The notes beneath the pieces were generated by a model that was not told the origin of the DNA, ran no database searches, and saw only the letters and a list, made by a program, of their open reading frames with translations. Positions 7,301 through 27,157 of a DNA stretch of 37,581 bases are shown in pieces. The stretch is taken from contig NZ_JACJQJ010000080.1 in assembly GCF_014696615.1 (NCBI RefSeq), positions 1 to 37,581 of the forward strand, given 5' to 3'. The DNA is from Nostoc linckia FACHB-104 (GTDB taxonomy: Bacteria > Cyanobacteriota > Cyanobacteriia > Cyanobacteriales > Nostocaceae). Every line of letters starts with the position of its first letter. The stretch's first letter is position 1. A program made the translations under genes and the position numbers.

Positions 7301-10300
7301 TTCTAATTGTGCTACTTCGCTGAAATCTAGTTCTAAATCATCTGCTGTTGCCAGTAAATCAGTGCTTAAATCTAATTCTCCAACCTCATCAACGCTTGTT
7401 TCTGTAGTCTCAACATTTGCTAATAAATCTAGATTTGCTTGTGGCTGTTCTGATTGTTCTACTTCGCTGAAATCTAGTTCTAAATCATCTGCTGTTGCCA
7501 GTAAATCAGTGCTTAAATCTAATTCTCCAACCTCATCAACTGCTGTTCCTGCTGTTGCAGCATTTAATAAATCTAGATTTGCTTGTGGCTGTTCTGATTG
7601 TTCTACTTCGCTGAAATCTAGTTCTAAATCATCTGCTGCTGTTAGTAAATCAGTGCTTAACTCTAATCCTCCAACCTGATCAACGCTTGTTTCGATGGTC
7701 TCAAAATTTGCTAATAAATCTAGATTTATGTCTGGGTGTTCTAATTGTGCTACTTCGCTGAAATTCAGTTCCAACTCATCTGCTGTTGTCAGTAAATCAG
7801 CGCTTAAATCTAATCTTGAAACCTCATCAACTACTGTTCCTGCTATTTCAGCATTTAATAAATCTAGATTTGTGTCTGGGTGTTCTAATTGTGCTACTTC
7901 ACTGAAATTCAGTTCCAACTCATCTGCTGTTGTCAGTAAATCATCGCCTAAATCTAATCCAGCAACCTCATCAACTGTTGTTTCTGCTGTTTCAGTATTT
8001 AATAAATCTAGATTTGCTTGTGGCTGTTCTAATTGTGCTACTTCGCTAAAATCTAGTGCTAAATCTGATGCTGCAACCTCATCAACTATTGCCCCTGCAA
8101 GCTCAAGATTCTCAAATAAATCTAAGTTTGTTGGACGCTGCTGTACTTCTGTTGATTCGTTTAAATCTAGTTTTAAATCATTTGCTGTCCCCAGTAAATC
8201 AGCACCTAAATCTAATGTTGCAAACTCATTATTAGTTGTTTCTGCGGTTTCAATATTTGCTAATAAATCTAGATTTGCTGGACGTTGCTGTACTTCTGTG
8301 GATTCGTTTAAATCCAGTTCTAAATCGGCTGATGTTGCTAGTAAATCATCGCCTAAATCTAATTCTGGAGTATCAGAAATCCTGATTTCTGAAGGGTCAA
8401 GCTGAATATATGTTGCGTGAGCGTTGTTGATATCCTCAAATAATAATTGTGGATTATCTCCGCTATTGTCGTTGATGAAATCAAACAAATCACTATCCGC
8501 AGAACTACCAAATGTATTGTCTGTTGATGGCTGATTCGTGAATTCTGGAGTGAAATCCAAAGCTTCGGGAGGTAGTGCTGTAGACGGAAGTGGTGAGCGT
8601 AAGCTTAGTTCCTCAGAAACATCGTCTTCCTCCGGTATCAAGCTGCGAATTTCTGTCAAAGGTAATTCAGTAGCATTAGCGGGGAAAATAGCTGTGTTGT
8701 CTGGTGCTAAATCTGCAAAAAGATCATCTCCAGCATCGGCTTCAAACATCAGATCCAGCTGCTCATCATCAGGCTGAAAAGTTAGATTAAAATCTTCTGG
8801 CTCAAAAGGTGATGCGGAAGATTGGGGTGACTGACTATCATCCAAAAAGTCATGAGCAGCTGTAAACAAACTCTCCTCTAGTGCTTTGGCAACATCTTGC
8901 TCGACTCGAGAACCAAATTCTAGCTGTGGTTCTGCGCCAGCTTCTTCATTCCAGAAGTTGCTTAAATCGTCTGCTGAAATATCATAATCCCTTGCTACTG
9001 TTGCTTGCGGATCAAATAAATCGTCAATTGTTGATTCGCTAGTAGAAAGTAGAGGATTTTCTCCCAAGTCAGTAAATGGATTATCCAAAGACAAGCTTTC
9101 TGGCTGTGGGAAGTTAATTGGAGAAATTTCTTCTAATAAATTGTCATTTGGAGTTTCTGAGAATAAATCATCAAAACTGGCTTCTTTATCTGGTTGATGT
9201 AATTCACCAAGAGATAGCAGATTGTTTTCATCTAGTTCTAAACCCAATAAATCTTGCACCACATCTTGTGGGGCAATATCACCAGGATATTCTTGCAGAA
9301 TTTCTGTAAATTCTCTGAGACTTTCATTAGTAGATGAGCTTAAATTTATATCATTTTGAGAAATATTGTTGACATCAGCATTTGTTGCTGATGTTTTTAG
9401 AGGTTTCGTAGTAGAATTTTCCTTTTCTAGGAAGTTTTCCCCAAATAATATGCTGAAATCTTCTGTTTGAATAATAGTTTGTTTAGATTCATCAATACTG
9501 CTAGGTTCATCAAAAGATAGTAAATCAGCTAAATCACTATCGGCATCTTCAGTATTGCTAGTGTTGGTATCAATGCCTAATTTGTTGGCTGCATTAATGT
9601 CTAAAATTTCCTCTTGTTGCCAAGTTTCATCTAGTTCGGGAGTTTCACCTTCAAATAAATCAGCGAGTGTATTTAACTCCGCAATTCCTACTTCTGGCCC
9701 TTTGGGGTCAAGATTTTGATTTGTCAGTACTGTTTCATCTTCATTATTGGGCAAGAAGTTGAATAATTCTGAAGTCTCAGGGGTAGAATTTTCTTTATTT
9801 GTAGCAATATCTTGGACTTGGTAAACTGGGGTTGATAGGTCAGATAAGCTAGCAGTGATATTGTTATTAGCGTCGGCAAAATCATGCTTTGTTACAAAAG
9901 TTAGCTCATCAGTGATCGCTTGAGTGCGCTCGTTCGTAGATAGAGTTGGTTGGGTTGCAAACTCATCTGGTAAATCAGTAGTTATTTCAAATAAATCAAC
10001 TTCAGGGAAACTTAAAAGAACTTCTAGCTGCTGGCTAATGACAATCTCAGATTCTTTACCTTTAAGAACTAATTCCTGAGCTTTTTTAATTTCTGTAATA
10101 ACAATTTTTGCCAGAGTTAGATAACTATTATCTGGATTAGCGATCGCATTCTCTGCGGCTTCGCATAATTTACACCAGTTCGGCAAATTAAATGTCTCAC
10201 CCAATACGACTAATTGGTGACAGGTTTGCTGGAGATTTTGCCGACTTTCATCAGTTGTTCCTTGTTTAAATAGTTGCAACATTTCTCGCAGCGTCTGCAG

Positions 10301-10909
10301 CACTTGCGCTTGAAACTCACCCCAGTTATCATTTGCTTTGGTAACAACTGGCGCAGACTTTTGGGGTGGTGCTTCTTCTGGGACAGAAAAATCCCGTTGC
10401 ATGAAGATTTCTGTTAGTGTGTGGGAGTTATCAGCAAAAGCTGGCTGCATTGCTGGTGCAACCCTACTGTCTACACCACCGCTTGCTTGTTGTACAAGTA
10501 GTTCCAAATGCTCGTTCAGCCATTGAAAGACCGGCTCAGTTTCCGACATCAATGTATTAGCTGTCTCTTCTGACAAACCAAATGGGCCGCTCAAATTCTC
10601 TAGCAGCGCTTTAAGGGTATCAGAAACCCCAAGAAATAAGGACTCTAACTTTTGGTCAACCTGAATCGGATTTTCTTTGAGAACCTTGAAACAATCTTCT
10701 AGGCGGTGAGATGTATGCTGGATGCTACTCAAACCAAGCATCGCCGCTCCTCCTTTAATGGAGTGAGCAGCCCGGAAGACTTCGTTGATCATTTCTGGAT
10801 CGTTCAGGGTACTCTGAAGATTTAACAACCCCTGCTCAATGGTATTCAGGTGGTCTCTTGCTTCTTCAATAAAGTAACCTAAAATGCGCTGTTGTTGTTC
10901 CGGCAGCAT
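4304..10909 (-). CDS. hmpE: HmpE: CheA-type hybrid histidine kinase with giant acidic repeat linker
   Basis: A 2201-residue CheA/PilL-type kinase. The N-terminal HPt domain carries His49 in AAHSIKGGAAMLGL. A second, degenerate HPt-like stretch lies near 196-262. A very acidic, probably disordered linker runs from about 320 to 1540 and holds the tandem repeats annotated separately. The CheA core starts near 1560 (MKVPVKQLDDMSNLVGELV), with N-box HMLNNAIAHGIE near 1760, a GDDGAGID box, and GRGVGMD before a CheW-like domain (about 1900-2043). A C-terminal receiver (2073-2190) has Asp2123 in FCDIEMP and the FTKP lysine. In Nostoc punctiforme the hmp kinase is needed for hormogonium development and motility. 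It is last in the cluster, 126 bp after hmpD. Confidence 0.95.
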   Translation of the reverse strand: MLPEQQQRILGYFIEEARDHLNTIEQGLLNLQSTLNDPEMINEVFRAAHSIKGGAAMLGLSSIQHTSHRLEDCFKVLKENPIQVDQKLESLFLGVSDTLKALLENLSGPFGLSEETANTLMSETEPVFQWLNEHLELLVQQASGGVDSRVAPAMQPAFADNSHTLTEIFMQRDFSVPEEAPPQKSAPVVTKANDNWGEFQAQVLQTLREMLQLFKQGTTDESRQNLQQTCHQLVVLGETFNLPNWCKLCEAAENAIANPDNSYLTLAKIVITEIKKAQELVLKGKESEIVISQQLEVLLSFPEVDLFEITTDLPDEFATQPTLSTNERTQAITDELTFVTKHDFADANNNITASLSDLSTPVYQVQDIATNKENSTPETSELFNFLPNNEDETVLTNQNLDPKGPEVGIAELNTLADLFEGETPELDETWQQEEILDINAANKLGIDTNTSNTEDADSDLADLLSFDEPSSIDESKQTIIQTEDFSILFGENFLEKENSTTKPLKTSATNADVNNISQNDINLSSSTNESLREFTEILQEYPGDIAPQDVVQDLLGLELDENNLLSLGELHQPDKEASFDDLFSETPNDNLLEEISPINFPQPESLSLDNPFTDLGENPLLSTSESTIDDLFDPQATVARDYDISADDLSNFWNEEAGAEPQLEFGSRVEQDVAKALEESLFTAAHDFLDDSQSPQSSASPFEPEDFNLTFQPDDEQLDLMFEADAGDDLFADLAPDNTAIFPANATELPLTEIRSLIPEEDDVSEELSLRSPLPSTALPPEALDFTPEFTNQPSTDNTFGSSADSDLFDFINDNSGDNPQLLFEDINNAHATYIQLDPSEIRISDTPELDLGDDLLATSADLELDLNESTEVQQRPANLDLLANIETAETTNNEFATLDLGADLLGTANDLKLDLNESTEVQQRPTNLDLFENLELAGAIVDEVAASDLALDFSEVAQLEQPQANLDLLNTETAETTVDEVAGLDLGDDLLTTADELELNFSEVAQLEHPDTNLDLLNAEIAGTVVDEVSRLDLSADLLTTADELELNFSEVAQLEHPDINLDLLANFETIETSVDQVGGLELSTDLLTAADDLELDFSEVEQSEQPQANLDLLNAATAGTAVDEVGELDLSTDLLATADDLELDFSEVEQSEQPQANLDLLANVETTETSVDEVGELDLSTDLLATADDLELDFSEVAQLEQPPTNLDLLANVETTETSVDEVGELDLSTDLLATAGVLELDFNAATELEQPQAQINLLNAETAGTVVDEVGELDLSTDLLATADDLELDFSEVAQLEQPPTNLDLLANVETTETSGDEVGELDLSTDLLATTDDLELNFSEVAQLEQPPTNLDLLVLDSTETKVATNAESDLLSTETILQVAIKQEDLVENTANTQDSNGAIANNVVELDAANDLSVSLENITQADEVATTTAAEAELDVPPSTPEDEFAELETLLEEELASPLPEEDFAALEALLDADLNEEPSAAPLPVYPQQSQPPNAYNNANTAATSPELEDEFGDLEKLLAEADQTISHSPSIKSTPGKAARPATRRGARFEETMKVPVKQLDDMSNLVGELVVNRNTLEQDHERLRQSLDNLLIQVQQLSDVGARMQELYERSLLEASLLATRKHRESGGSSGDSNSDRGFSELEMDRFTPFHTLSQEMIEMIVRVRESASDIDFVTEETERVARQFRQATTQLQEGLTRARMVPFSQAIDRLRRGVRDNAIKYGKQVELMIEGGDTLIDKMILDHLTDPLTHMLNNAIAHGIETPEVRQAAGKNPVGEIKIRAFHQGNQTVISVGDDGAGIDTEKIKAKALKLGMLTAEEAKTITRMEIYNLLFHSGFSIKDEADEISGRGVGMDIVRSEISEVRGAVSTDSAIGKGTTFTIRLPLTLSICKALCCVSDKARIAFPMDGVEDTLDIPVKSIQQNADGQTFIAWRDTVLPFRPLKDLLAFNRQISRGSVYGGTRDDDMVSVVVVRSANNLLALQIDLVLSEQEIVIKQFEGPAPKPLGVAGATVLGDGRIMPIADVLEIMDIFQGRMSKQSSGLWQQKPAQTLAEVAVEKIDPTVLIVDDSITVRELLSLTFNKAGYRVEQARDGQEAWDKLRSGLPCDIVFCDIEMPRCDGLELLSRIQKDHNLNHLPIAMLTSRGADKHRQMAIQLGASGYFTKPYLEEALLEAAVRMLKGEKLILNTTA
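6848..8380 (-). repeat. 144-147 bp in-frame tandem repeats inside hmpE
   Basis: About ten complete units and one partial unit encode 48-49 residues each, with one shortened to 38 residues (8012-8125). Boundaries read from the DNA are 6848, 6995, 7139, 7286, 7433, 7577, 7724, 7868, 8012, 8126 and 8273. The peptide consensus begins LDLLANVETTETSVDEVGEL and continues with DLSTDLLATADDLELDF and SEVAQLEQPPTN. Units between 6848 and 7576 are the most alike, so they look recently amplified. Unit lengths are all multiples of three, so copy-number change would keep the kinase in frame. Confidence 0.93.
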
Positions 10910-11035: not shown

Positions 11036-14026
11036 TTATCTAGATTCGAGAGTATCTACCCGGAAACGTTCCACAGAAGCAATTAAGTCTCTTGATACGC
11101 CTACTAAGTGTTGTAACGCACCAGATACTCTTTGTGCTTCCTGGGAGGTTTCCTGTGCCGTTAGTTCTACGGATTGCATAACGTGAGCTACTGCACGGGA
11201 GGTTTCTGTTTGTTCTACAGTATCCGAGGTAATTGAACGCACCAGGATATCAATCCGATTTGCTACTTGAATGATATTTTCTAGCGATCGCTTAGCTTCT
11301 TCAGCTAATTTAGTACCTTTAATTACCTGTTGTGTGCCTTCCTCCATTGCAGTCATTACAGAGCCTGTTTCGCTCTGGATTTGCATCACGATTTGTTCAA
11401 TTTCTTTTAAGGACTTGGCAGATTTGTCTGCTAGCTGGCGGACTTCATCCGCTACAATAGCAAATCCACGTCCGGCTTCACCTGCCCTGGCTGCCTCAAT
11501 ACTAGCGTTGAGCGCTAATAAATTAGTTCGGGAGGCAATTTGCGAAATTAACGCCACAATCTTAGAAATTTCTTGCGAAGATTCGGCTAAGCGCTTCACT
11601 TTGCGAGTAGTTTCTGCTACAGTTTCTCTGATTTCTAAAATACCTGCCACGGTATTTTCCACGGCTTCACCACCTTTTAAGGCGATGGTGCTGGCATCGC
11701 GGGCAACAGTTTCCGCTTCTCTGGCTGCTTCCGCTACCCGTTGAATGGAGTCGGTCATTACCTGTACAGAATTGAGTGTGACAGCTAACTCTTCTGCTTG
11801 CCTTAAAGCATCACTAGATAAGGCTCTAGCAAATGTTTCGGAGTTCGTTGCACCCTTGGTAACATCTCGTGCCGCTACTTTTACCTGTTGCACAATATCC
11901 CGCAAGTTTTGAATTGTCAGGTTAAAGGCATCTGCTACGGCTCCTAGTACGTCTGCTGTTACCTCAGCTTGTACTGTTAAATCGCCTCTGGCTGCTCCTT
12001 CTACATCATCCAACAGGCGAATTACTTGGCGTTGTAGATTTTCTTTGGCTTCTTCCTGTTCATCAGCTTTTCTTTGGGCTTCATTGGTAGTAGTAAAAAT
12101 TACTCTTGCCATTTCATTAAAGCCAGTAGCCAACAGTCCTAATTCATCTTCAGAATAGACTGTGGCTTGAACATTGAGATTGCCTTGACGAACAGCATCA
12201 AACTGAGCTTGTAAGTTCTGAGTTGTGCGGCGAACTTGCTTGATAGTGAAATTACCCATAAAGGCTGCGGTAGCAAACCCAGCCAGCCCGGCTGCTAGTG
12301 ACATAGCCCAGCCAGTGTTCCGCACTGATTCCCGCTGCTGCGGCGGCGAAAAGCTGGTAGCACCAAAGCTAACTGTTGCTACAACCAGCGCTGATACGAC
12401 ACCTACAGTCCCCGCAATCAGCCATTGTTTCTTCTCTAGGGAAGCATTTTCTAAGGGCGCTAACCAACCTTGCTCAACGCTGACATTGGCTTCTAATTTT
12501 GCAACATCTACTTGAGTAAAGACTGGGACTACTTCTTGTGAACCAGTAATTGAAAACAGTTCATCTTCGCGATCGCCTGTTTCATCAATTGCAGGTTTTT
12601 GTCCGGTTTGACTGCGAGAGTGACTACCTGTTTCCAATGGGCCAGAATCCATGCTGACATCTCGGAAGCTGGCTTCTGCATCTGTCAAATCAAATCCAGG
12701 AATGTTACCCAGGTCGTCAAATTCATCAAAGTCATCTAAAAAATCTATATTAGTTTTAGAAGCCTCGTGATTAATTTCTCCACTACTGATATTGCTTGCT
12801 GGGATATTACTTGCTGGGATATTGCTCGGTTCTTCATCGGGGCTGAAATCATCTGTACCAAAGGCAGATTCAAAAGCCTCCAAATCAAAGCTGTCATCTA
12901 TATCAGAAAAACTCTGTTCTAGCTGGCTACCTTGTTTTTGTGGCTGTTCTTCTCGGTGAAAATTGCTGTCAGCAGTGCTAACCACCTCTTTTAATGTATC
13001 TTCAGCTTCTATGGGGCCCAACCAATTATCAGATGTAGTTGGGGATAAATCCTCCTGAGGCTGGGATGGCAAATTGCTAGTTTTTGGAGCACTTTCCTGA
13101 AGAAGTGTTTGGTTCTTGACTAAAGTTTCATTTTCCAGGCTATTACTCTTCCACTCAAAATCAGCTTCGCTAGGCTCCGGATAGGTTTCTGAGGTTAAGA
13201 ACTCAGTCGGTATTTCCCAATTATTACTTGTTGAAGCATCAAGTTCTTCAACTTCTGTAAACGGTGAATCGCTATAATTTTCCGAATTAGTGAAACCTTT
13301 ATTATTTGAATTTGTAGTAGCTTCTAGAAAAGGATTATTTATCCCTGAATCATCAATAGTATTTTGATTGTTGTCTTCTTGCCAAAAAGCAGGTAACTCT
13401 AATTCTCCTTGTTTTTCCCAAATGTTAGCATTGGCATCGCGATCGCTAGCTTCCTCAGTAAAACTAAAGGGATCGTTACTCAAAGGTGCTGAATCATCTG
13501 GTAAACCATTAAATGCACTACTACTATATGCAGAGATATCAAATGAACTATCTAAGGATAGTTCTTCTATTCCATCTCCAGATTCTTGGTATTCACCAAA
13601 GGGATGGTCGCCAAAGCTGCTACTAGCAAAATCATTATGCTGTTGCGAATTCTGTAATTCTTCTGTATCAGCAAACCGACCATTGGATATTTCTGATGAA
13701 GAAATATCTTCATTATTGTCACTGATAGCAAACTCATCTGGTAGTGATTGTTGATATTGAGCAATACTTTCCAGACCATGTTTAGCAAAATCAATTAATT
13801 CTCGATTGTCGGTTAACTGTAAAACTTGTTGATATTCAGCTTTGGCTATATCGTACTGTTGTAAAACGTAGTATATGTGACCCCGCAACAAATGGGAGTT
13901 AGGGTCATTTGGCAAATTTTGTACCACCTGATCCACTAAAGTGGCGGCAACATCATAGTTCTGTTGCGCGTAAGCCGTACAAGCCTGCTTATATATTTCT
14001 AAGTAATCATCTATACTTGCTGCCAT
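11036..14026 (-). CDS. hmpD: HmpD: methyl-accepting chemotaxis protein (PilJ-like) with TPR-like N-terminus
   Basis: A 996-residue chemoreceptor. Residues 1-100 contain TPR-like helices ([36 protein letters not shown]), then a roughly 400-residue acidic linker. Two membrane segments (about 533-556 and 573-597) are separated by only about 16 residues, so there is almost no periplasmic domain. A HAMP and a second HAMP-like region follow, then a long signalling coiled coil with the hairpin tip [20 protein letters not shown] near 845. The start at 14026 is chosen over an in-frame ATG at 14062 because GGAGG lies six bases upstream and it avoids overlap with hmpC, leaving 16 bp between them. In Nostoc it acts with HmpC and HmpE in motility control. 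Confidence 0.93.
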
Positions 14027-14042
14027 GTCCACCCTCCCAATA

Positions 14043-14573
14043 TCATCCTGCCCACCTCGCACTCCGCAAAATTGCCATTTGATCCAGAAGTCTTAAAGAC
14101 TTATTTGTTTTGGCATCTATTAACCACTCACCGCGCAGAAAGGGAGCCATAGTATCCGGTACATGAGTTGTTAGCATCAGATGCTGCACGTCAAGCCAGT
14201 CCATACCACCTATTTCTTCTACCGCTAAGCCCACTATCGTGTCTTGCTCTTCGATAGCAATTACCGGAATTTCTGCTCTATCTGTATTTAATGCGGTTGC
14301 TTCTCCTAAAAATTGACCCAAATCAGCTACCCAAATTACTCGACCTCGTAAGTTTAGAGTACCCAAAAGTAAAGGAGAAGCATTAGGAATGGGAGTGATT
14401 CTATCAGGACTCAATTCCATTACCTCTCGAATTCCAGTTGCTGGTAGTGCAAACTCCTGGTGCGAGGGGATGTAAAACCGCAAATGCAATTCACCTTCAG
14501 GGCTTTCTACTTGTAATTCAGGACGGAAGTGGTCTTGACTACCACCACTTAAAAAGTCCGGTTTACTGACCAT
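14043..14573 (-). CDS. hmpC: HmpC: CheW-like adaptor (PilI-like)
   Basis: A 176-residue single CheW domain that should couple receptor HmpD to kinase HmpE. The typical pattern is present: [14 protein letters not shown] near 32, the IREVMEL turn, then [19 protein letters not shown], and AVEEIGGM toward the end. The ATG is preceded by AAGGAT and lies 13 bp after the hmpB stop; hmpD starts 16 bp after its own stop, so B-C-D form a tight translational unit. Length and domain make-up are normal for the family. Confidence 0.93.
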
Positions 14574-14586
14574 TTTCTTGTCATCC

Positions 14587-14952
14587 TTATCCTCGCAGCA
14601 GTTGTTTGACTGTTCCCACCAACTCAGTTGGTTGAAACGGTTTGGCTATGTAAGCGTCTGCACCCTGTTTCATGCCCCAGTAGCGATCGAATTCTTCACC
14701 TTTGGAAGAACACATCACAACGGGGACATTTTGGGTTTTCGGATCGGATTTTAACCGACGGCAAACTTCGTAGCCGTTCATCCGGGGCATGACAATATCC
14801 AAGACCACTAAATCAGGAGGTGTGCTTTGAATTGCCTCCAAAGCTTCAACCCCATCACTGGCATGGGTGACTGTTAAGCCACTTGCTTTCAGGAGGTCTG
14901 TAATCATCTCCCTTTGTGCGATACTGTCTTCCACAATCAGAACTGTACTCAT
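14587..14952 (-). CDS. hmpB: HmpB: CheY-like single-domain response regulator (PilH-like)
   Basis: A 121-residue receiver domain with no output domain. The acidic pair lies in VEDS (Glu8, Asp9), the phosphoacceptor is Asp52 in LVVLDIVMPRMNG, the switch Ser is in the MCSSKG stretch (near 82), and the conserved Lys is 104 in AKPF. All key residues are present, unlike the receiver of HmpA. It is presumably phosphorylated by HmpE. It lies 13 bp upstream of hmpC and 214 bp downstream of hmpA. Confidence 0.93.
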   Translation of the reverse strand: MSTVLIVEDSIAQREMITDLLKASGLTVTHASDGVEALEAIQSTPPDLVVLDIVMPRMNGYEVCRRLKSDPKTQNVPVVMCSSKGEEFDRYWGMKQGADAYIAKPFQPTELVGTVKQLLRG

Positions 14953-15166
14953 AAATGCCTATCTACCTCCTGATGTAGACGTTCCTACTTGGAACATTCC
15001 CTGATTCCCCGCAAGTATTTAGTGTATAAATTAAGTCTATTCCTTAACTAATTTACTAGATAATAACTTTATACTGGTTGTACTGGGGCTGGCTGATTCT
15101 GTGATAACATTTTTTACCTCATCTTTTATCGAATCAACAAGTGTTATATCTTTTCTGTATGACCAT

Positions 15167-16363
15167 TTAAGGCTGTTTATTGATATATTTTTCTACGAGC
15201 GCGAGTAACTCAGTATCTTGCAAAGGCTTAGTCAGATAATCTGTAGCCCCAACCATACTAGCTCTGACTCGATCAATAAACCTATCTTGACTATTCAGCA
15301 TAATAATCGGCACCAGCCGAAATGCTGTAGATTGTCGCAGCATGGCACAAATCTCATATCCATCTAATTCCGGCATGGTAATGTTGCAAAAAATCATCTG
15401 CGGCTTGAGTTGAAAAACGAGACTTAGAGAGTCTAAGGGATTAGTTAAAGTTAACACTTCATAACCTTGTTGCTGCAAAATAGCCTCTATAGTCTCACCA
15501 ATGGTTGTGACTTCGTCAATACATAATATCCGTGCCTTGTAGTCTGACTCTACTAAAATTTTCTCAGTGTTAATACTGTGTTTACTAGTAATTGGATATA
15601 CTAACTTTAGCCAACCCTGTTGAACGTAGGGATATATTACCTTGGCAATTGTCAAAATGTCTCGGTTGAGATAACGAGAAAGTTGACGTAAGGATGTTTT
15701 CCCATCTGCCCAATGCTTGAGTTTATTTATTGTTTCTGCTGGTAAAGATGAGTTTAATTGAACCATCTCAGAAAGTATGGGCACTTGATCGGCAGACTCA
15801 ATGTGAGGATACAACTGCTGCCAATGTTGCAGTTGCTTGGCAATTTTACTGACTAGCGGGCCTATCTCCCAAGTGTTTAATTGTGGAGTCAGGGCCGGAC
15901 TGTGATGGAAGATAAAACTACCTGTGTGCAAACCCAGTAAATCAAATAGCGTTTCAGACACCAGACTATGCATGATATTACGCGCTACTTTGGGGTTAAT
16001 CATATTTTGCTCTAACAGTGCCCAAAGATAGCTATATTCTTTTATATTCAGTGGATCTACTATGGAAGCTAGCTGGATATCGTTGAGCTGAGTCTCCACA
16101 CGGTAATGTCTTAAGTAATCGTTAATCCTGGATGAAGTACCATCTCCTTCTTGGCAATAGAGAATCTGGCCATTTAAGAAAAAGACGAACCAGTACTGTT
16201 GTGGTTGGTAGCAAAAGGAATGGTGATATCTGTTCACCTCTTCTCTAATTTGGTTGCTATTGCGAAAGTTATGAGTTTTCACCAACAGTTGGCCAGTTCG
16301 CTGGCCCAACTCAATCAATTGCAGGATACTACGAAGATCTATTTCATTTAAATTTCCCTGCAT
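15167..16363 (-). CDS. hmpA: HmpA: PATAN-domain (PatA-like) response regulator with degenerate receiver
   Basis: A 398-residue PatA/PilG-like protein. The N-terminal half is a PATAN (DUF4388-type) domain (IDLRSILQLIELGQRTGQLL at 8-27). A receiver occupies roughly 276-395. The acidic pair (Asp283, Glu284) and Lys379 in LTKPL are kept, but the phosphoacceptor position is Asn327 (FCNITMPELDG) and the switch Thr position is Asn357 (IIMLNSQD). I checked both codons (AAC at 15383-15385, AAT at 15293-15295). The domain is therefore probably a pseudo-receiver. It is first in the cluster, divergent from hmpF across 559 bp. Identity rests on domain order and neighbours; PatA-family paralogues are common in Nostoc. 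Confidence 0.9.
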   Translation of the reverse strand: MQGNLNEIDLRSILQLIELGQRTGQLLVKTHNFRNSNQIREEVNRYHHSFCYQPQQYWFVFFLNGQILYCQEGDGTSSRINDYLRHYRVETQLNDIQLASIVDPLNIKEYSYLWALLEQNMINPKVARNIMHSLVSETLFDLLGLHTGSFIFHHSPALTPQLNTWEIGPLVSKIAKQLQHWQQLYPHIESADQVPILSEMVQLNSSLPAETINKLKHWADGKTSLRQLSRYLNRDILTIAKVIYPYVQQGWLKLVYPITSKHSINTEKILVESDYKARILCIDEVTTIGETIEAILQQQGYEVLTLTNPLDSLSLVFQLKPQMIFCNITMPELDGYEICAMLRQSTAFRLVPIIMLNSQDRFIDRVRASMVGATDYLTKPLQDTELLALVEKYINKQP

Positions 16364-20973: not shown

Positions 20974-23900
20974 CTACAGCCGAACGACAGCGATCGCTCC
21001 TCCTAATGCGGAGAAAATAGCGGAGACAACTGCTGTCGCAAACAACCACCAAGCTGCTGAAGCTGCGGCTTTGCGGGTTTCTTCGGCTTGTCGCTGTGCT
21101 TGATGCTTGACTTGTTCTAAGCGGCGCTGCGCTTCTTGATGTAAGCGTTCTGCCCGTTGTAAAACTGTGTTGCGCGCTCCTTCAATTTGGTCGATAATCC
21201 GGTTGGCATCTTCTTCGGAGATATCCTCACGGGAACTGATCAGTGCTACTAAGGTATCGCGGTTGAAAGAAGATAAGCGATCGCGTAAGGAATCAAATCC
21301 CGCTTGGGGATCGTCAAATAGTTGGCGCACATCGCGCTTAATACTATCGTAGTTGAGTTCGGGGCGTTCCAAGGAGTTGAGGTAGTTACGGATGCGGGCA
21401 AACACGCCATCAATCACATCTTGAATGCGGCGCTGAATACCCCGTATTTGCTCAACAAATTGTTCTTGCACTGAGACGATATTATCTGCAATTCTCGCTG
21501 CTTCCTCATCGGAAATATCTTCGCGAATTTTCAGCAGAGCGATAATTGTGGAACGGTCAAAGTGTGCCAGGCGATCGCTAAAACTTTCAATCCCCACCCG
21601 TGGATCGTGTAATAACAGTTGTAAGTCGCGTTTGATACCTTCGGGGTTGAGTTCTTCTTTGCCTGTCTGCCGTAAATACTCTTCTAAATAAGCTTGGAAG
21701 GTTTCTACTCTTTGCTGGGTTCTGGTAGCTAGGCGACGAGGCGCACGCACAAAATTGCGAATCGAATGTTGTACAGAATCAATGACTTCATTGACTTGCT
21801 GTTCGCTCAAGTCTTGACGCTGACTGAGTAATTTCACTAGGGTATCTCTATCTACCTGAGACAAGCGACGGCGGAGTGCTAAGGCTCCTTCTTGGGGGTT
21901 TTCAAACAGTCTATTTAAATCGCGTTGAATACCTTCGGGATTGAGTTCGCTTTTGCCGGTATTACGCAAGTAATCAGCGATGGTAGTGCTAACAGAGTCA
22001 TATTGCTCTTTCGCTTTATCTGCTACTGCTTGGGGTGCGTGGCGGATACTATGCCATGACTGTTCGACAGTATCAATAATTTGATTTGCTTGGTCTTGGC
22101 TGATATCTTGGCGCTGACTCAACAGTTGTACCAAGGTGTCGCGGTCAAACCGAGACAAGCGTGCCTGAATTGCAGTCACACCAGCTTGCGGATCTTCCAG
22201 CAATCTTTTGAGATCGGCTCGAATTGCATCGGGGTTGAGTTCGCCTTTGCCGGTATTACGCAGATATGATTCTAAATTCAGCCACAGGGTTTCTGCTTGA
22301 TATTTTGCCTGATCTGCCAGATTTTTAGATTCGATTAAAGTGCGATCGCGTTGTTTTTCTAAATCCTCGAGAATCCCATCTAGTTCGTATGGCTGAATGT
22401 CGTTGCGTTGATACAGTATTTGCTGCATTTGTTGGCGATCAATCGCAGCTAATCGTCGTGAGAGGGTTTCGTAATCTGCATCTGGGTCTGACAAAAGATT
22501 TTTAAAATCCCGTTCAATACCTTCTGAGGTTAAATCAGATTTACTAGTAACGAGGAGGTAGCTTGAGACTCGACGTTGTAAATCTTCTACTATCTCTCTT
22601 TCTTCCACAGCGGTCACAGTCACCAATACTTCTTGGCGGACAGCTTCTAGTTGATCTGCAATGCGCTGAATTTGTCCTTGGGTAAGCAGTCCCCTCTGTT
22701 GCAAGATGTTGGCAAAATCATTGCGGGAAAGTCGCTCTAATTCTCGCCTTACTACTCCAGGATCTGCTGCTGGATCGTAGATCACATCACGGAATTCCTG
22801 GGCAATTCTTTCGCGGCTGAGTTGCCAAGCATAAGTATTGGAAAGATAGTTTTCCACATCAGCCCGAATAGGACTATAGGGCTGGGAAGCTGCGGGTAAA
22901 CCTAGCTTATCGGCTTGTTCGCTGATTTTATCTTTAGCGGTGGATAGGGATTGCCAAATTTTTTCTACATCTAAATCTGATAAGTCTGTTCTGCCCAAAA
23001 CAATACCAGTTAAAGCCGAGATTCCTTGCTGGAGTGTTTGCTGAATTGGCCCAGGGGTGGCTTTTTGGTCAGCTTCTTTAGAGTCACGAGTTTCTGCAAT
23101 TAACCTCTCCAGCTTGGCATTGAGTTCATCTGTTTTCGTTTGTCCTGGTGGTAATGATTTGAGATATTCGACTAACTCCCCTAGGCGGTCTTGGGCTGGT
23201 GCTTGCTGACTGACTACTTGCTGCCAGAGTTTGTATAATGTGTCTGAGATGCGTTTGACATCGCGTTTAGATAGGTCTGTACGATTGCTAACTAAATCAA
23301 TAAACTTTTGACGGTCGATGTTGCGGAGGTCAGGGCTACCTGCGATCGCTTGAAATTGGGGGTCTTTTAGTAAGTTTTCAAACTCGCTGCGGATTTTGGA
23401 TAAATCTAACTCTGGCGGACGCAACCTGTCTAAGTAATCTTCTACATTTTCCCGAATGCTTGTGGGGTCAATTCCGCTTCCTAGTTCGCGACGCATGGCG
23501 GCGGCGGCGGCTTCGGCTGTGGCTACAACTTGGTTATTCACAGCTTTTGCACCTAATGCAGCTGTAGCTGTCCCCATAATTGCTTGAAAGCCAGAGGTTG
23601 CTGTGTTAACTACTGAACCAATTAAGGAACCAACTGTAGTGGAACTCACCCACATCAATAATAAGAAGTAGGCTCCCCAAATTACTAACCCTAGAGTTGC
23701 ACCCAATCCTGGATCTAACACCAGAAGACTGAGTTTAACTGCTAAGTAACTAGCAATTAAAAGGGCCACTGTCACCGTGACCAAAGTCCAAATCCCTACA
23801 GCAGTACCAATTTTACGAATTGTGCCGCCCAAACTTCCTGCTTCATTATCGGAATCTGAGTCAGAGGAATGCCCTAAGTAGGAAATACCAGCTGCTAGGG

Positions 23901-24093
23901 AGAGATTTGTTAATACTAGTTGAAAAGCAAAGGCGAGAATTACGCCGGAAATTAAGGCAATAAAAAAGCGTGGCCCAGAGGTGAGAACCGATGCTTGTGC
24001 TGGTGAAATATCTGAGGTGGGGTTTACTGGAATCTGTGCCATCCATAAGAATGGCTTGTAGAGTCCCAGCATAATTTCTGTACTTTGAAACAT
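20974..24093 (-). CDS. large membrane protein with about seven ~100-residue repeats, unknown function
   Basis: A 1039-residue protein I do not recognise as a named family. Three or four membrane segments lie near the N-terminus (about 43-67, 97-126, 132-160) and one at the C-terminus (1013-1037). Between them is a long soluble region with repeats near 214-295, 408-490, 506-585, 605-685, 704-785, 802-880 and 900-980. The consensus runs YLRNTGKxELNPEGIxRDL, then LLxDPQAG, then DRDTLVxLLSQRxDIS and a helix ending in IIDxVE. The C-terminal 30 residues before the last span are a charged helix (RLEQVKHQAQRQAEETRK). AAAGGA precedes the ATG. It diverges from the hli genes across a region with an HLR1 match, suggesting light-stress control. 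An envelope- or thylakoid-tethered scaffold is possible; no catalytic motif is seen. Confidence 0.85.
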   Translation of the reverse strand: MFQSTEIMLGLYKPFLWMAQIPVNPTSDISPAQASVLTSGPRFFIALISGVILAFAFQLVLTNLSLAAGISYLGHSSDSDSDNEAGSLGGTIRKIGTAVGIWTLVTVTVALLIASYLAVKLSLLVLDPGLGATLGLVIWGAYFLLLMWVSSTTVGSLIGSVVNTATSGFQAIMGTATAALGAKAVNNQVVATAEAAAAAMRRELGSGIDPTSIRENVEDYLDRLRPPELDLSKIRSEFENLLKDPQFQAIAGSPDLRNIDRQKFIDLVSNRTDLSKRDVKRISDTLYKLWQQVVSQQAPAQDRLGELVEYLKSLPPGQTKTDELNAKLERLIAETRDSKEADQKATPGPIQQTLQQGISALTGIVLGRTDLSDLDVEKIWQSLSTAKDKISEQADKLGLPAASQPYSPIRADVENYLSNTYAWQLSRERIAQEFRDVIYDPAADPGVVRRELERLSRNDFANILQQRGLLTQGQIQRIADQLEAVRQEVLVTVTAVEEREIVEDLQRRVSSYLLVTSKSDLTSEGIERDFKNLLSDPDADYETLSRRLAAIDRQQMQQILYQRNDIQPYELDGILEDLEKQRDRTLIESKNLADQAKYQAETLWLNLESYLRNTGKGELNPDAIRADLKRLLEDPQAGVTAIQARLSRFDRDTLVQLLSQRQDISQDQANQIIDTVEQSWHSIRHAPQAVADKAKEQYDSVSTTIADYLRNTGKSELNPEGIQRDLNRLFENPQEGALALRRRLSQVDRDTLVKLLSQRQDLSEQQVNEVIDSVQHSIRNFVRAPRRLATRTQQRVETFQAYLEEYLRQTGKEELNPEGIKRDLQLLLHDPRVGIESFSDRLAHFDRSTIIALLKIREDISDEEAARIADNIVSVQEQFVEQIRGIQRRIQDVIDGVFARIRNYLNSLERPELNYDSIKRDVRQLFDDPQAGFDSLRDRLSSFNRDTLVALISSREDISEEDANRIIDQIEGARNTVLQRAERLHQEAQRRLEQVKHQAQRQAEETRKAAASAAWWLFATAVVSAIFSALGGAIAVVRL
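21154..23454 (-). repeat. seven diverged ~300 bp coding repeats
   Basis: These are the repeats in the 1039-residue membrane protein. They are diverged at DNA level but clear in protein: each has a Y-L start, E-L-N/D-x-x-x-I-x-R-D, D-P near the middle, and D/N-R-x-T-L-x-x-L-x-x-R-x-D-I/L-S toward the end. Spacing is about 98 residues in the last five units and longer between the first two, where a partial unit (TDLSDLDVEKIW, near 369) remains. Confidence 0.8.
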
Positions 24094-24623
24094 TTTATTT
24101 CCTTTCTCTAAGCTTAAATTTGGGGAAATTAAGGATTACGTGTGCAGAAAATCTGTATTTATGGACATACCTAACTCTTGTAAGTCTCAGAATCGTGGAA
24201 TTTGGGTGCTAAGAGCATCTCTCCACAGTTTGAATAACATATCTAGCGTTAGGTAGAAATTTAATTAGCCAAAGGGAAAATCTTCATTAGCTAGCTGGTA
24301 AAAATTCGGATTTATTACTAGTTAAGGCATCTAGATGGCTATATGCAAGAATATTTTTTTATATACATTGATTGTGCAAGTAAATTATTTATTTATGGGT
24401 ATCCCAGCTAAAGTAAATTCCTGCAATTAAAAGTTTTTTATGTTGTCCACGTTACATTTATTTACAAATATTTTTTTATCACCATCTTAAGGTGGATATC
24501 TAAGTTGCGATCGCTTTTGAAGCTTCATCCATAAGAAGTGCCTATTGTTTGTACCTATAGACAGAAAGCAATTTGTTTGTAAATCGTTACATTTAAGTTA
24601 TGAAACAAATTGTTAAGGGAAAA
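24094..24623. promoter_or_regulatory. divergent regulatory region between repeat protein and hli array
   Basis: About 530 bp without a gene, AT-rich. It contains the HLR1 match annotated separately and a HIP1-type GCGATCGC near 24508. Close to the hli start, TTTGTAAAtcGTTACATT (24575-24596 area) carries one more HLR1-like half-site in a non-canonical arrangement. Confidence 0.6.
24451..24468 (+). promoter_or_regulatory. HLR1 element (candidate RpaB-binding site)
   Basis: GTTACATT-TA-TTTACAAA fits the published HLR1 consensus (G/T)TTACA(T/A)(T/A)NN(G/T)TTACA(T/A)(T/A) at every defined position. HLR1 is bound by the response regulator RpaB and controls hli and photosystem genes under high light. 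It lies about 155 bp before the first hli ATG and about 360 bp before the divergent repeat-protein gene. The match is seen; binding and the distance effect are inferred. Confidence 0.75.
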
Positions 24624-24827
24624 ATGGAAACTCGTTCTTCCACAGATTTACCAACAATTTCTACAGAATATAACGGCATAGATCGTAATGCTTTTATATT
24701 CGGCTGGACACCACAAGCAGAACTTTGGAATGGTCGTTTAGCAGCTATTGGGTTTTTAGCTTATCTACTTTGGGATTTAGCAGGTTATAGCGTTCTTCGC
24801 GACGTATTACACCTGATTAGTTACTAA
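24624..24827 (+). CDS. hli: high light-inducible protein (HLIP), copy 1
   Basis: A 67-residue single-span Lhc-like thylakoid protein. HLIPs bind chlorophyll and carotenoid and protect photosystem II assembly intermediates. The chlorophyll-binding motif AELWNGRLAAIGF (Glu33, Asn36, Arg38) leads into the membrane helix. I chose the ATG at 24624 rather than the in-frame ATG at 24600: AAGGGA lies just upstream, and it gives the same 67 residues as the other three copies. This copy is slightly diverged at the N-terminus and C-terminus (TISTEYNGID, LISY). It is first in the array and nearest the HLR1 element. Confidence 0.93.
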   Translation: METRSSTDLPTISTEYNGIDRNAFIFGWTPQAELWNGRLAAIGFLAYLLWDLAGYSVLRDVLHLISY

Positions 24828-24866
24828 AGATTAAAGACAGAAAAAAACGCGCATTGGAGTAAAAAA

Positions 24867-25070
24867 ATGGCAACTCGCTCTTCCACTGATTTACCACCTG
24901 TCGCTACAGAATACAACGGCGTAGATCGCAATGCTTTTTTGTTTGGTTGGACTCCCCAAGCAGAACTCTGGAATGGTCGTTTAGCAGCTATTGGATTTTT
25001 AGCTTATTTACTTTGGGATTTAGCGGGTTATAGCGTTCTCCGCGACGTATTACACCTGATTGGTTACTAG
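24867..25070 (+). CDS. hli: high light-inducible protein (HLIP), copy 2
   Basis: 67 residues, nearly identical to copy 3 (two differences, at residues 2 and 5). It has the same AELWNGRLAAIGF chlorophyll-binding motif and a single membrane span ending in the YSVLRDVLHLIGY tail. TTGGAGTAAAAAA precedes the ATG, and the same leader is found before copy 3. The gap from copy 1 is 39 bp with no terminator, so the array is probably one transcript. Confidence 0.93.
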   Translation: MATRSSTDLPPVATEYNGVDRNAFLFGWTPQAELWNGRLAAIGFLAYLLWDLAGYSVLRDVLHLIGY

Positions 25071-25112
25071 AGATTAAATACAAATAAAAAAGCGTAATTT
25101 TGGAGTAAAAAA

Positions 25113-25316
25113 ATGGAAACTCGTCCTTCTACTGATTTACCACCTGTTGCTACAGAATATAACGGCGTAGATCGCAATGCTTTTCTATTCGGTTGGACTC
25201 CCCAAGCAGAACTTTGGAATGGTCGTTTAGCAGCTATTGGATTTTTAGCTTATTTACTTTGGGATTTAGCGGGTTATAGCGTTCTTCGGGACGTATTACA
25301 CCTGATCGGTTACTAA
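25113..25316 (+). CDS. hli: high light-inducible protein (HLIP), copy 3
   Basis: 67 residues, differing from copy 2 only at residues 2 and 5. It keeps the chlorophyll-binding Glu, Asn and Arg. The upstream TTTTGGAGTAAAAAA matches the leader of copy 2. It starts 246 bp after the start of copy 2, matching the array period of 243-246 bp, which indicates tandem duplication of gene plus leader. Confidence 0.93.
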   Translation: METRPSTDLPPVATEYNGVDRNAFLFGWTPQAELWNGRLAAIGFLAYLLWDLAGYSVLRDVLHLIGY

Positions 25317-25357
25317 AAATTAAATAACCCAAAAAGTATTCAATTTTGGAGAAAAAA

Positions 25358-25561
25358 ATGGAAAGTCGCTCTTCTACAAATTTACCAGCAGATTCTAAGG
25401 CTTACAATGGCGTAGATCGTAATGCCTTTATCTTTGGTTGGAATCCCCAAGCTGAACTTTGGAACGGTCGTTTAGCAGCTATTGGATTTTTAGCTTATCT
25501 ACTTTGGGATTTAGCTGGCTACAGCGTTCTGCGTGATGTATTACACATCGTTGGCTATTAG
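25358..25561 (+). CDS. hli: high light-inducible protein (HLIP), copy 4
   Basis: 67 residues with the most diverged N-terminus (NLPADSKAYNGVD), WNPQ in place of WTPQ, and a C-terminal LHIVGY. The chlorophyll-binding motif is intact. The ATG at 25358, preceded by TTTTGGAGAAAAAA, is chosen over an in-frame TTG at 25346. A 15-bp stem terminator follows the stop closely, ending the array. Confidence 0.93.
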   Translation: MESRSSTNLPADSKAYNGVDRNAFIFGWNPQAELWNGRLAAIGFLAYLLWDLAGYSVLRDVLHIVGY

Positions 25562-25650: not shown

Positions 25651-26358
25651 TTAACGTCCGCCTAAAATTTCTGAGATTGCCGATACAATATCAAGATAGA
25701 AATTGCCACCTACTGCTCGAAATAATTCAAATTTAGAGCCAGGTGAACCAAAAAATGGTCTTAAAAACCAGCCTAATTGCACACCTACAAAGCCATATAA
25801 AAATAGCCAGGATCGTAAAATAGTAGTGCGAGTTTTTTTACCAACATCATCTTGTTGAGAAAGCAATTGCATTCCTTCATAGAGGAATTTCACCCCAAAT
25901 ATACCTGTGATCCCAAAAATTAACACATTTAACAGTTTAAAAAATTGGTAAGAACCAGGCGCAGTGATCATAAAAAATAGCGTCACTGGTGCCAAGCTGA
26001 ATAAAAGCACACTAATTACAGATACAGCTGTGAGCAAGACAACAAAATGCTGTTGCAGAGTGCTACGGGAACCAAATAAAACATTAAAAAAGAATAGAGT
26101 TGGGAAACAAATAATTAGCGTTAGCAAATAGAAAGCTGGGAGTTTGATAGCACCAGATAATGCTTGTCCCCAACTATGGGATGCACCGATAATTGCACCG
26201 TAGATAGCAAAACAGATGGAACTAGAAACAAAGAGAGCGCTGATTTTACTTTGTAACCTGACTCCTTGGCTAATTTCTTCTAAAAAACCCTGGCGATCGC
26301 GTAGTAAACTGATGAGAATGTTAAACTGTTTATTTTTGTAAGAAGGCTTATCAAGCAT
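25651..26358 (-). CDS. multi-span membrane protein, paralogue A, unknown function
   Basis: A 235-residue integral membrane protein with about five or six hydrophobic segments (roughly 41-60, 71-90, 101-123, 131-155 and 184-200). A cytosolic start carries LLRDRQGFLEEISQGVRL and a C-terminal signature RPFFGSPGSKFELFR is followed by a short amphipathic tail. It is clearly paralogous to the next gene upstream (26453-27157), sharing the same N-terminal, central and RPFFG motifs. I cannot assign a function. It is convergent with the hli array; the 94-bp gap to its paralogue allows co-transcription. Confidence 0.8.
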   Translation of the reverse strand: MLDKPSYKNKQFNILISLLRDRQGFLEEISQGVRLQSKISALFVSSSICFAIYGAIIGASHSWGQALSGAIKLPAFYLLTLIICFPTLFFFNVLFGSRSTLQQHFVVLLTAVSVISVLLFSLAPVTLFFMITAPGSYQFFKLLNVLIFGITGIFGVKFLYEGMQLLSQQDDVGKKTRTTILRSWLFLYGFVGVQLGWFLRPFFGSPGSKFELFRAVGGNFYLDIVSAISEILGGR

Positions 26359-26452
26359 AGTGGTCTAGTAAATTAATTAACGATTAATTAGAAATGGCAC
26401 CCTGCATAAAAAAGCTTGTCGATTACATCTGATTTTTATTGCTCAGATTGAG

Positions 26453-27157
26453 TTAACGTAATCCTAAGAGGTAGCCAATAGCTTGCAGCACACTTAGGTA
26501 AAAACTACCTTCTCTGTCTCTAAATAGTTGGAATATAGAACCAGGCGTACCAAAAAATGGTCTGAGAGTCCATCCCAGCTGGCTACCTACAAAAGCATAG
26601 AGAAACAACCAAGATAGGATAATTTTGCGGCGTGTATTGCTACCTTCATTGTCTTGTTCTAGCACTACACTTGTGGCTTGATATAGAGAGGAAATACCAA
26701 TAAATCCTGTAAAGCTAAATATCACCACATTCAGCAGGATTAAAAATTGATAGTTATTAGTAGTGATTAAGAAAAATAGTGTAATAGGTGCAAAGCTAAA
26801 TAATAACACGCTAGTTACTGAAACCGCTGTTAATACTAGTACAAAATGCTGCCCAAAAGTTCGCTTAGAACCAAAAATAATATTAGAAAAATAAAGTGTG
26901 GGCAAACAAATTATCAGTGTAATTAAATAGAGTGCTGGTAGTTTAACTGCAGAAGACAAAGCTTGCATCCAGCTATGATATGCGCCAATAATACCACCAT
27001 AAATAGCCAGAAATAGAGAACTGCAAACTAACAGCGAAATGATTTTACTTGGTAGTCTAACGCCTTGGGTAATTTCTTCTAAAAAAGCTTGGCGATCGCG
27101 CAGTAAGCCAATCAGGACTGTAAAATATTTTATCCCTGAAGATTGCCTTTCAATCAT
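26453..27157 (-). CDS. multi-span membrane protein, paralogue B, unknown function
   Basis: A 234-residue paralogue of the downstream gene. Shared blocks are LLRDRQAFLEEITQGVRLPSK, the AIYGGIIGAYHSW helix, LPALYLITLIICLPTLYF, and the C-terminal RPFFGTPGSIFQLFR. About six membrane spans and no signal peptide or catalytic motif are visible. The pair arose by tandem duplication and has since diverged considerably. Position near hli and cruP suggests, but does not show, a link to thylakoid or light-stress biology. Confidence 0.8.
   Translation of the reverse strand: MIERQSSGIKYFTVLIGLLRDRQAFLEEITQGVRLPSKIISLLVCSSLFLAIYGGIIGAYHSWMQALSSAVKLPALYLITLIICLPTLYFSNIIFGSKRTFGQHFVLVLTAVSVTSVLLFSFAPITLFFLITTNNYQFLILLNVVIFSFTGFIGISSLYQATSVVLEQDNEGSNTRRKIILSWLFLYAFVGSQLGWTLRPFFGTPGSIFQLFRDREGSFYLSVLQAIGYLLGLR

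Follow-up and report, generated by a model that had tools for sequence, protein, structure and literature searches.

Members of the PhnA-like/YrzE group of Pseudomonadota are membrane proteins of 274 to 335 amino acids, with three related N-terminal spans, a short soluble region that contains one recognisable helical unit or none, a single C-terminal span, and stress genes in their neighbourhoods. Here, we describe a cyanobacterial relative of 1,039 amino acids, referred to as P0001, which is encoded in a stretch of 37,581 nucleotides from Nostoc linckia FACHB-104 (contig NZ_JACJQJ010000080.1 of assembly GCF_014696615.1); this whole stretch is called the window. Judged from sequence comparisons, P0001 is a repeat-expanded relative of this uncharacterised bacterial membrane family, with eight units of 98 amino acids, and the best explanation of its role, held tentatively, is that of a membrane-stress scaffold. 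The features of the locus are summarised in Table 1.

The reading frame of P0001 was open at full length in homologues with sequence identities as low as about 46%, and 231 of the 240 homologues among the matches listed in 2 protein listings were 1,000 to 1,100 amino acids long, which argues that P0001 is a genuine gene whose length is conserved. Hydropathy maxima were located at residues 43 to 61 and 107 to 125, in several overlapping segments within residues 117 to 162, and at residues 1,019 to 1,037. The reading frame and the hydropathy profile confirmed an earlier reading of the DNA made from the letters alone, here called the sequence-only reading, which had described a protein of 1,039 residues with a multi-span N-terminus and a single C-terminal span, and they support its claim that both ends are anchored in a membrane with a long helical stretch between them. 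The 2 repeat motifs that it listed, ELNPEGIxRDL and DRDTLVxLLSQRxDIS, were both found in P0001.

A comparison of P0001 with itself showed a maximum at an offset of exactly 98 residues. A repeat profile, made from the protein's own family with the second unit left out, placed copies 1 to 4 at residues 212 to 304, 307 to 402, 408 to 500, and 504 to 599, and copies 5 to 8 at residues 602 to 698, 700 to 795, 798 to 893, and 897 to 991. Since the profile was derived from the same family, its matches within P0001 are partly by construction; the period of 98 residues is independent of it. The second unit is degenerate and matched the profile weakly (E = 1.5e-3). Helical repeats had thus been correctly foreseen, although the count is 8 units of 98 residues by the profile rather than about 7 of about 100. 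Among 119 proteins compared with the profile (E < 0.01), 99 contained 7 or 8 units and 5 contained 9 or 10, while the 15 with fewer units were short forms, proteobacterial proteins, a fragment, and outliers. Nine long variants fell outside our alignment of 95 rows (P0249 to P0255, P0260, and P0267), and the 7 of them that were scanned contained 8 to 10 units each, P0251 and P0253 being outside the scan. In the local structure model, P0001 resembles spectrin-like and designed helical repeats in that helical units follow one another and are joined by a long helix; no significant match in sequence or fold was obtained.

Searches of plasmids with tblastn returned 15 records for P0001 at E = 0.01, of which 2 were annotated as PhnA-like and one as YrzE family. 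The repeat-free short cyanobacterial form described below returned 80 records at E = 0.1, mostly from Alphaproteobacteria; among the 30 of these that were listed, several were annotated as PhnA-like and the rest were hypothetical or unannotated. For comparison, we used 8 proteobacterial proteins (P0242 to P0248 and L175), the PhnA-like/YrzE names being taken from the plasmid records. BLASTP aligned P0001 with P0242 from Comamonadaceae over 276 columns that take in the membrane core and extend into the HU-like hairpin (E = 3e-14), and with P0243 from Pseudomonas both in the N-terminal core (E = 3e-12) and in a separate segment at residues 875 to 1,035, corresponding to the last repeat and the C-terminal span (E = 9e-10). 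Furthermore, P0243 contained both halves of one repeat, in order, with E-values of 4.7e-4 and 6.1e-7 against the repeat profile, and half a unit was recognised in L068 (E = 2.5e-5). In P0242 and P0243, a unit similar to both repeat halves is located between spans 3 and 4, as in P0001. With hhalign, the alignment of the long family (A3) matched that of the 8 proteobacterial proteins (A5) at 99.0% (E = 7.5e-18) and that of the short cyanobacterial forms (A4) at 97.4%, and A5 matched A4 at 99.7%, whereas the control A7, which aligns 2 membrane proteins unrelated to these families, gave 0.1% with A5.

In its N-terminal membrane core and its C-terminal span, P0001 is therefore homologous to the PhnA-like/YrzE proteins, but with 8 units in place of at most one, it is classed as a repeat-expanded relative of these proteins and not as a member. 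The repeats do have relatives, in the single-unit proteins of Pseudomonadota and in the HU hairpin similarity in Pfam, and no function was found for the PhnA-like/YrzE relatives either.

The protein search with P0001 yielded 3,007 proteins at E ≤ 0.001 among 7,995 scored, and the named organisms among the 120 matches listed were cyanobacteria. With the source genome counted, matches to the P0001 family were present in 31 of 39 relatives and, phylum-wide, in 45 of 292 genomes, at least 3 of the latter being short forms or chance matches. Within the taxonomic family, the P0001 family was matched in 166 of 192 genomes (query P0043), yet no curated model covers its full length and the names that it carries are misleading. 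The source genome encodes one paralogue (G000:C13), which is 49% identical to P0001. No multi-repeat form outside cyanobacteria was found among the matches listed, genomes of other phyla not being scanned for the long form. Restriction to cyanobacteria, which the sequence-only reading had named as a sign in its favour, thus holds for the multi-repeat form among these matches, and not for the membrane core, the repeat unit, and the C-terminal span, which are shared with proteins of Pseudomonadota. From these comparisons, the membrane frame is common to more than one phylum, with the eight-fold array seen in cyanobacteria alone among the matches listed. The P0001 family is a widely kept, unstudied membrane protein of filamentous cyanobacteria.

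The short cyanobacterial form (209 to 240 amino acids; L067 and L070 to L072) shares the membrane core of P0001 and often resides in the same genome, but unlike P0001 it contained no repeat in the profile scan. Its profile matched 49 of 285 genomes, some via long forms alone, and the source genome has one copy (G000:C79). A scan of contigs identified 225 loci that encode it. The titles of 80 of these 225 loci were cyanobacterial except for one Gracilibacteria bin (L150). One short-form record was named PhnA-like, and no HLIP motif was seen beside the short form at L206, the sole locus inspected. It was also noted that the short-form matches at L200 and L202 had a stop counted inside the match, which may be just the natural end.

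Many homologues are called "MFS transporter" in NCBI records and some are called "nucleoid DNA-binding protein" at JGI. The only Pfam match to P0001 above the cut-off was PF00216 (HU), with an E-value of 2.6e-7 and 31.2 bits against a cut-off of 22.4, and no NCBIfam model scored above its cut-off. Across P0001 and 5 shorter cyanobacterial proteins, the PF00216 match in P0001 was the sole one above the cut-off of a Pfam or NCBIfam model, Bacillus subtilis YrzE and P0242 to P0248 being outside this comparison. A nucleoid protein of the HU type tethered to the membrane would account for the match to residues 261 to 296, and PF00216 also stands among the precomputed annotations of most of the 120 listed homologues and of many in the second listing. 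However, only HU positions 3 to 38 of 90 are covered. The DNA-binding part of HU consists of the β-sheet and arms; neither was seen in P0001, where the match stops short of them and the (poor) model contains no strand. The soluble region is net acidic, with 118 lysine or arginine (K/R) against 141 aspartate or glutamate (D/E) residues, and the repeats are probably extracytoplasmic. P0001 is thus like HU/IHF in the α1-α2 hairpin and differs from these in being an acidic membrane protein without the β-saddle and arms, and a role as a tethered HU protein is very improbable. A transporter, as the name on many NCBI records implies, is more improbable still, since about 4 spans are predicted in P0001 as compared with about 12 for MFS, and no MFS profile appeared in the Pfam and NCBIfam lists, which ran to E = 10. 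As far as the sequences tell, neither database name is supported, because MFS profiles are missing from the matches listed and the HU match does not extend over the DNA-binding part. The family itself is real, widespread within its lineage, and misnamed, and the mechanism set out below is a proposal.

In the window, 4 tandem hli genes are located upstream of P0001 in divergent orientation, as the sequence-only reading had it. The 4 genes, at 24600-25561, are near-identical, and orthologues showed one to four adjacent HLIP motifs in the stretch examined. Seven hli-like places were identified in the source genome, including the 4 in the array. Genes with HLIP motifs were located upstream and divergent in 34 of the 38 orthologue loci (at least 67% identity) and never in the opposite orientation, so that the proposed hli neighbourhood represents an evolutionarily conserved linkage. 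No HLIP motif was found upstream in any of the 42 rows with less than 64% identity; the upstream reach in this count was 357 to 3,000 bases, and 3 of the 42 rows represent one locus. Among the orthologues without a motif, L008, L038, and L084 had none in 6 to 8 kb upstream, and in L019 the contig ended 771 bases upstream, yet an HLR1 site was present. A quick tree was made of 78 proteins, in which a fully supported branch separated the 35 rows with the label hli from the 11 rows with the label YflT; L019 was counted as hli by inference, and 32 of the 78 rows carried neither label.

The conserved pairing flags P0001 as a candidate new player in light-stress membranes of cyanobacteria. It might be a dedicated partner of HLIPs, produced along with them under high light, that would scaffold the pigment bound by HLIPs or the assembly of photosystems at the thylakoid, for which the divergent arrangement in the 34 orthologues speaks. 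Among 20 orthologue loci with flanks of about 8 kb, 16 had hli adjacent to the gene, and a comparison with 20 window proteins otherwise matched nothing beyond response regulators and hli genes further away, which also favours such a partnership. On the other hand, the absence of hli from all rows of lower identity and from the surroundings of 3 orthologues argues against it.

The regulatory DNA bears on the same question. HLR1 is described as the RpaB site of high-light genes (PMC6331805). The HLR1-type site in the window, GTTACATTTATTTACAAA, was an exact match that occurred once, with 0.12 occurrences expected at up to one mismatch. Sites with at most one mismatch were found in 25 of 32 hli-linked intergenic regions (34 hli-linked loci with L004 and L083 left out), as compared with 0.2 expected; 22 were directed toward hli and 3 in the opposite direction. 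Another 45 upstream regions, covered over their first 600 bases, included 5 clade members, among them the hli-linked L083 with no site in that reach; a site with at most one mismatch was found in 2 of the 45, the clade member L019 and L077. The latter was the only one of 40 members outside the clade with a site, and the hli-less clade members L008, L038, and L084 had none in the same reach. A second conserved block lies about 95 to 170 nucleotides upstream of the P0001 start codon. Its palindrome, TATCTAGCGCTAGATA, was exact in 6 of 32 orthologues, the block could be recognised in L008 and L038, where hli is missing, and part of it recurred about equally far upstream in L045 and L053. HLR1 goes with hli rather than with the P0001 family, and since P0001 has a conserved block of its own, the two seem to have separate signals. 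Co-expression of P0001 with the HLIPs is for this reason unsupported. The presence of such sites in 25 of 32 intergenic regions counts in favour of an HLIP partner, but the site in the window is 357 nucleotides from the P0001 start, most sites point toward hli, and outside the clade they are nearly absent; taken together, we regard a dedicated HLIP partner as rather unlikely.

A different set of stress genes accompanies the paralogues. Nine paralogue loci contained a divergent block of genes for YflT, BON, and CAAD proteins, usually followed by a protein of 135 amino acids, opposite the paralogue gene, with some loci missing one member; examples of blocks divergent from the paralogue are found in L063 (1172-5239) and L215 (4321-7464). 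In L058, L060, and L193, YflT was near and otherwise arranged, L193 being an orthologue locus of the P0001 type. With rearranged loci included, YflT was present in 12, CAAD in 10, and BON in 9 of 36 loci without adjacent hli. Both situations are seen in a single Nostoc genome (G432), which has the order YflT-BON-CAAD beside the paralogue and 2 hli genes that diverge from the P0001 orthologue, which is 98% identical to the Nostoc punctiforme counterpart. The 135-amino-acid protein showed neither the HLIP helix motif nor a Pfam match, though one stretch of it may resemble an HLIP N-terminus. From gene order and features, the block is likely to be the stress cluster Npun_F3786 to Npun_F3789 of N. 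punctiforme. In a transcriptome study of an alkane-overproducing strain of this species (PMC7660261), Npun_F3786, with 4 predicted spans, was up 2.5-fold, Npun_F3787, with a signal sequence and a BON domain, 4.4-fold, and Npun_F3789 8.1-fold, and homologues of Npun_F3786 and Npun_F3789 were cited as rising with butachlor in 3 Anabaena strains. The gene facing this cluster, for which an R378x tag is expected, is absent from that paper's main text.

Among the proteobacterial relatives, genes for YsnF/AvaK or DUF2382 proteins were located beside 5 of 7 annotated loci and a csbD gene beside one more, and a mechanosensitive channel gene was among the neighbours. In Sphingopyxis, a csbD and an mscS gene are reported to be direct targets of the general stress response (PMC7083833). 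These neighbours, together with the BON-domain genes near the paralogues and the length and helical repeats of P0001, would suit a spacer of the cell envelope, in which the array crosses the periplasm and joins the plasma membrane to the peptidoglycan or the outer membrane under osmotic stress or stress on the envelope. However, both ends of P0001 return to the membrane, Pfam and NCBIfam showed no domain that would bind the wall or the outer membrane, and the hli linkage suggests the thylakoid; we consider an envelope spacer unlikely, and slightly more so than the HLIP partner.

Residues 410 to 600 could be modelled with block values of the predicted local distance difference test (pLDDT) of 67 to 90 and contained 3 short helices and one helix of about 45 amino acids per unit, the long helix continuing into the next unit. 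The model of the short form, of low confidence (pLDDT 56), contained 4 long helices and one short helix. The short relatives have an acidic loop 1 and a basic loop 2 and C-terminal tail, and the N-terminus is basic in the proteobacterial set, as would be expected with both ends in the cytoplasm. No cysteine was present in the soluble region of any of the 95 aligned proteins, as compared with 0.96% in the other open reading frames of the loci, which were unchecked as genes. We consider that the P0001 repeats are likely to be extracytoplasmic rather than cytoplasmic.

We give the membrane-stress scaffold a probability of about 0.45. The N-terminal core and the C-terminal span, arranged as in the PhnA-like/YrzE proteins with the 8 units inserted between the third and the last span, would form a single bundle of 4 spans, in which case the helical array of 780 residues would leave and re-enter the same membrane as a loop. 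Both termini would be cytoplasmic and the array would be in the thylakoid lumen or the periplasm. As its gene lies next to stress genes, here high-light genes, P0001 probably helps to protect a membrane under stress. It may act alongside the membrane-stress proteins of its neighbourhoods, with one subfamily paired with HLIPs and a paralogous one with YflT, BON, and CAAD proteins, and at times of stress the array could act as a spacer or as a scaffold at the surface, keeping the membrane or its protein complexes steady. A bolder and doubtful version is that a stress-linked four-span core grew its eight-fold array in cyanobacteria into an anchored hoop in the lumen or periplasm, and that 2 duplicates became tied to separate divergent stress sets, HLIPs in the case of light and YflT-BON-CAAD in that of membrane or hydrophobic stress, as a new kind of membrane-spacing scaffold. 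The link to a membrane family that crosses phyla and to 2 stress neighbourhoods may offer a route to the function of the PhnA-like/YrzE proteins too.

Several observations weigh against the scaffold and its geometry. The full-length model of P0001 was poor (mean pLDDT 53, predicted template modelling score 0.31), and no match to solved folds was above noise. The N-terminus of the long form is acidic (0.89 K/R versus 3.04 D/E) and the stretch right ahead of the last span is basic (8.46 K/R versus 4.63 D/E), so that the positive-inside rule favours the opposite side of the membrane. The lack of cysteine is no proof of export, since 7 of 44 control reading frames of at least 500 amino acids also had none (one family outlier, L066, 4 YflT neighbours, and 2 with export-like starts by reading). 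Five of the 8 proteobacterial proteins, P0244 to P0248, had no match to the repeat profile at E = 1, L175 being outside the scan. YflT was absent from 24 of the 36 loci, several of which had short flanks, and as HLR1 is gone where hli is gone, light control of P0001 itself is not supported. Finally, no experiments on P0001 or any relative were found in the literature.

Table 1. Features of the P0001 locus, in coordinates of the window.
Feature	Position	Strand	Basis
P0001, repeat membrane protein of 1,039 amino acids	20974..24093	minus	Open frame, ATG start, and homologue matches
C-terminal membrane span, amino acids ~1012-1036	20986..21060	minus	Hydropathy; aligned to C-terminal span of P0243
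Eight helical repeats of 98 amino acids, amino acids 212-991	21121..23460	minus	Period of 98 and repeat profile
HU α1-α2-like hairpin within repeat 1, amino acids 261-296	23206..23313	minus	PF00216, profile positions 3-38 of 90
N-terminal membrane core, amino acids ~42-175, three predicted spans	23569..23970	minus	Hydropathy and homology to PhnA-like/YrzE cores
Conserved block upstream of P0001, palindrome TATCTAGCGCTAGATA	24188..24262	minus	Putative promoter or regulatory element
HLR1-type (RpaB) site GTTACATTTATTTACAAA upstream of hli	24451..24468	plus	Exact match
hli gene 1, 75 amino acids	24600..24827	plus	Open reading frame and hli scan of genome
hli gene 2, 67 amino acids	24867..25070	plus	PF00504, E 0.0026, below curated cut-off
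hli gene 3, 67 amino acids	25113..25316	plus	hli scan of genome
hli gene 4, 71 amino acids	25346..25561	plus	PF00504, E 0.0027, below curated cut-off

Large YflT-domain neighbours without any cysteine were observed in L079, L080, L087, and L065. Elsewhere in the window, 2 tandem related multi-span membrane proteins that are 62% identical, the first without a Pfam match, are encoded at 25651-27157, and an open reading frame of 2,201 amino acids is located on the minus strand at 4304-10909. By reading, positions 11036-16363 contain a chemotaxis-like block with a methyl-accepting protein, a CheW-like protein, and 2 response regulators, one of which combines DUF4388 with a receiver.

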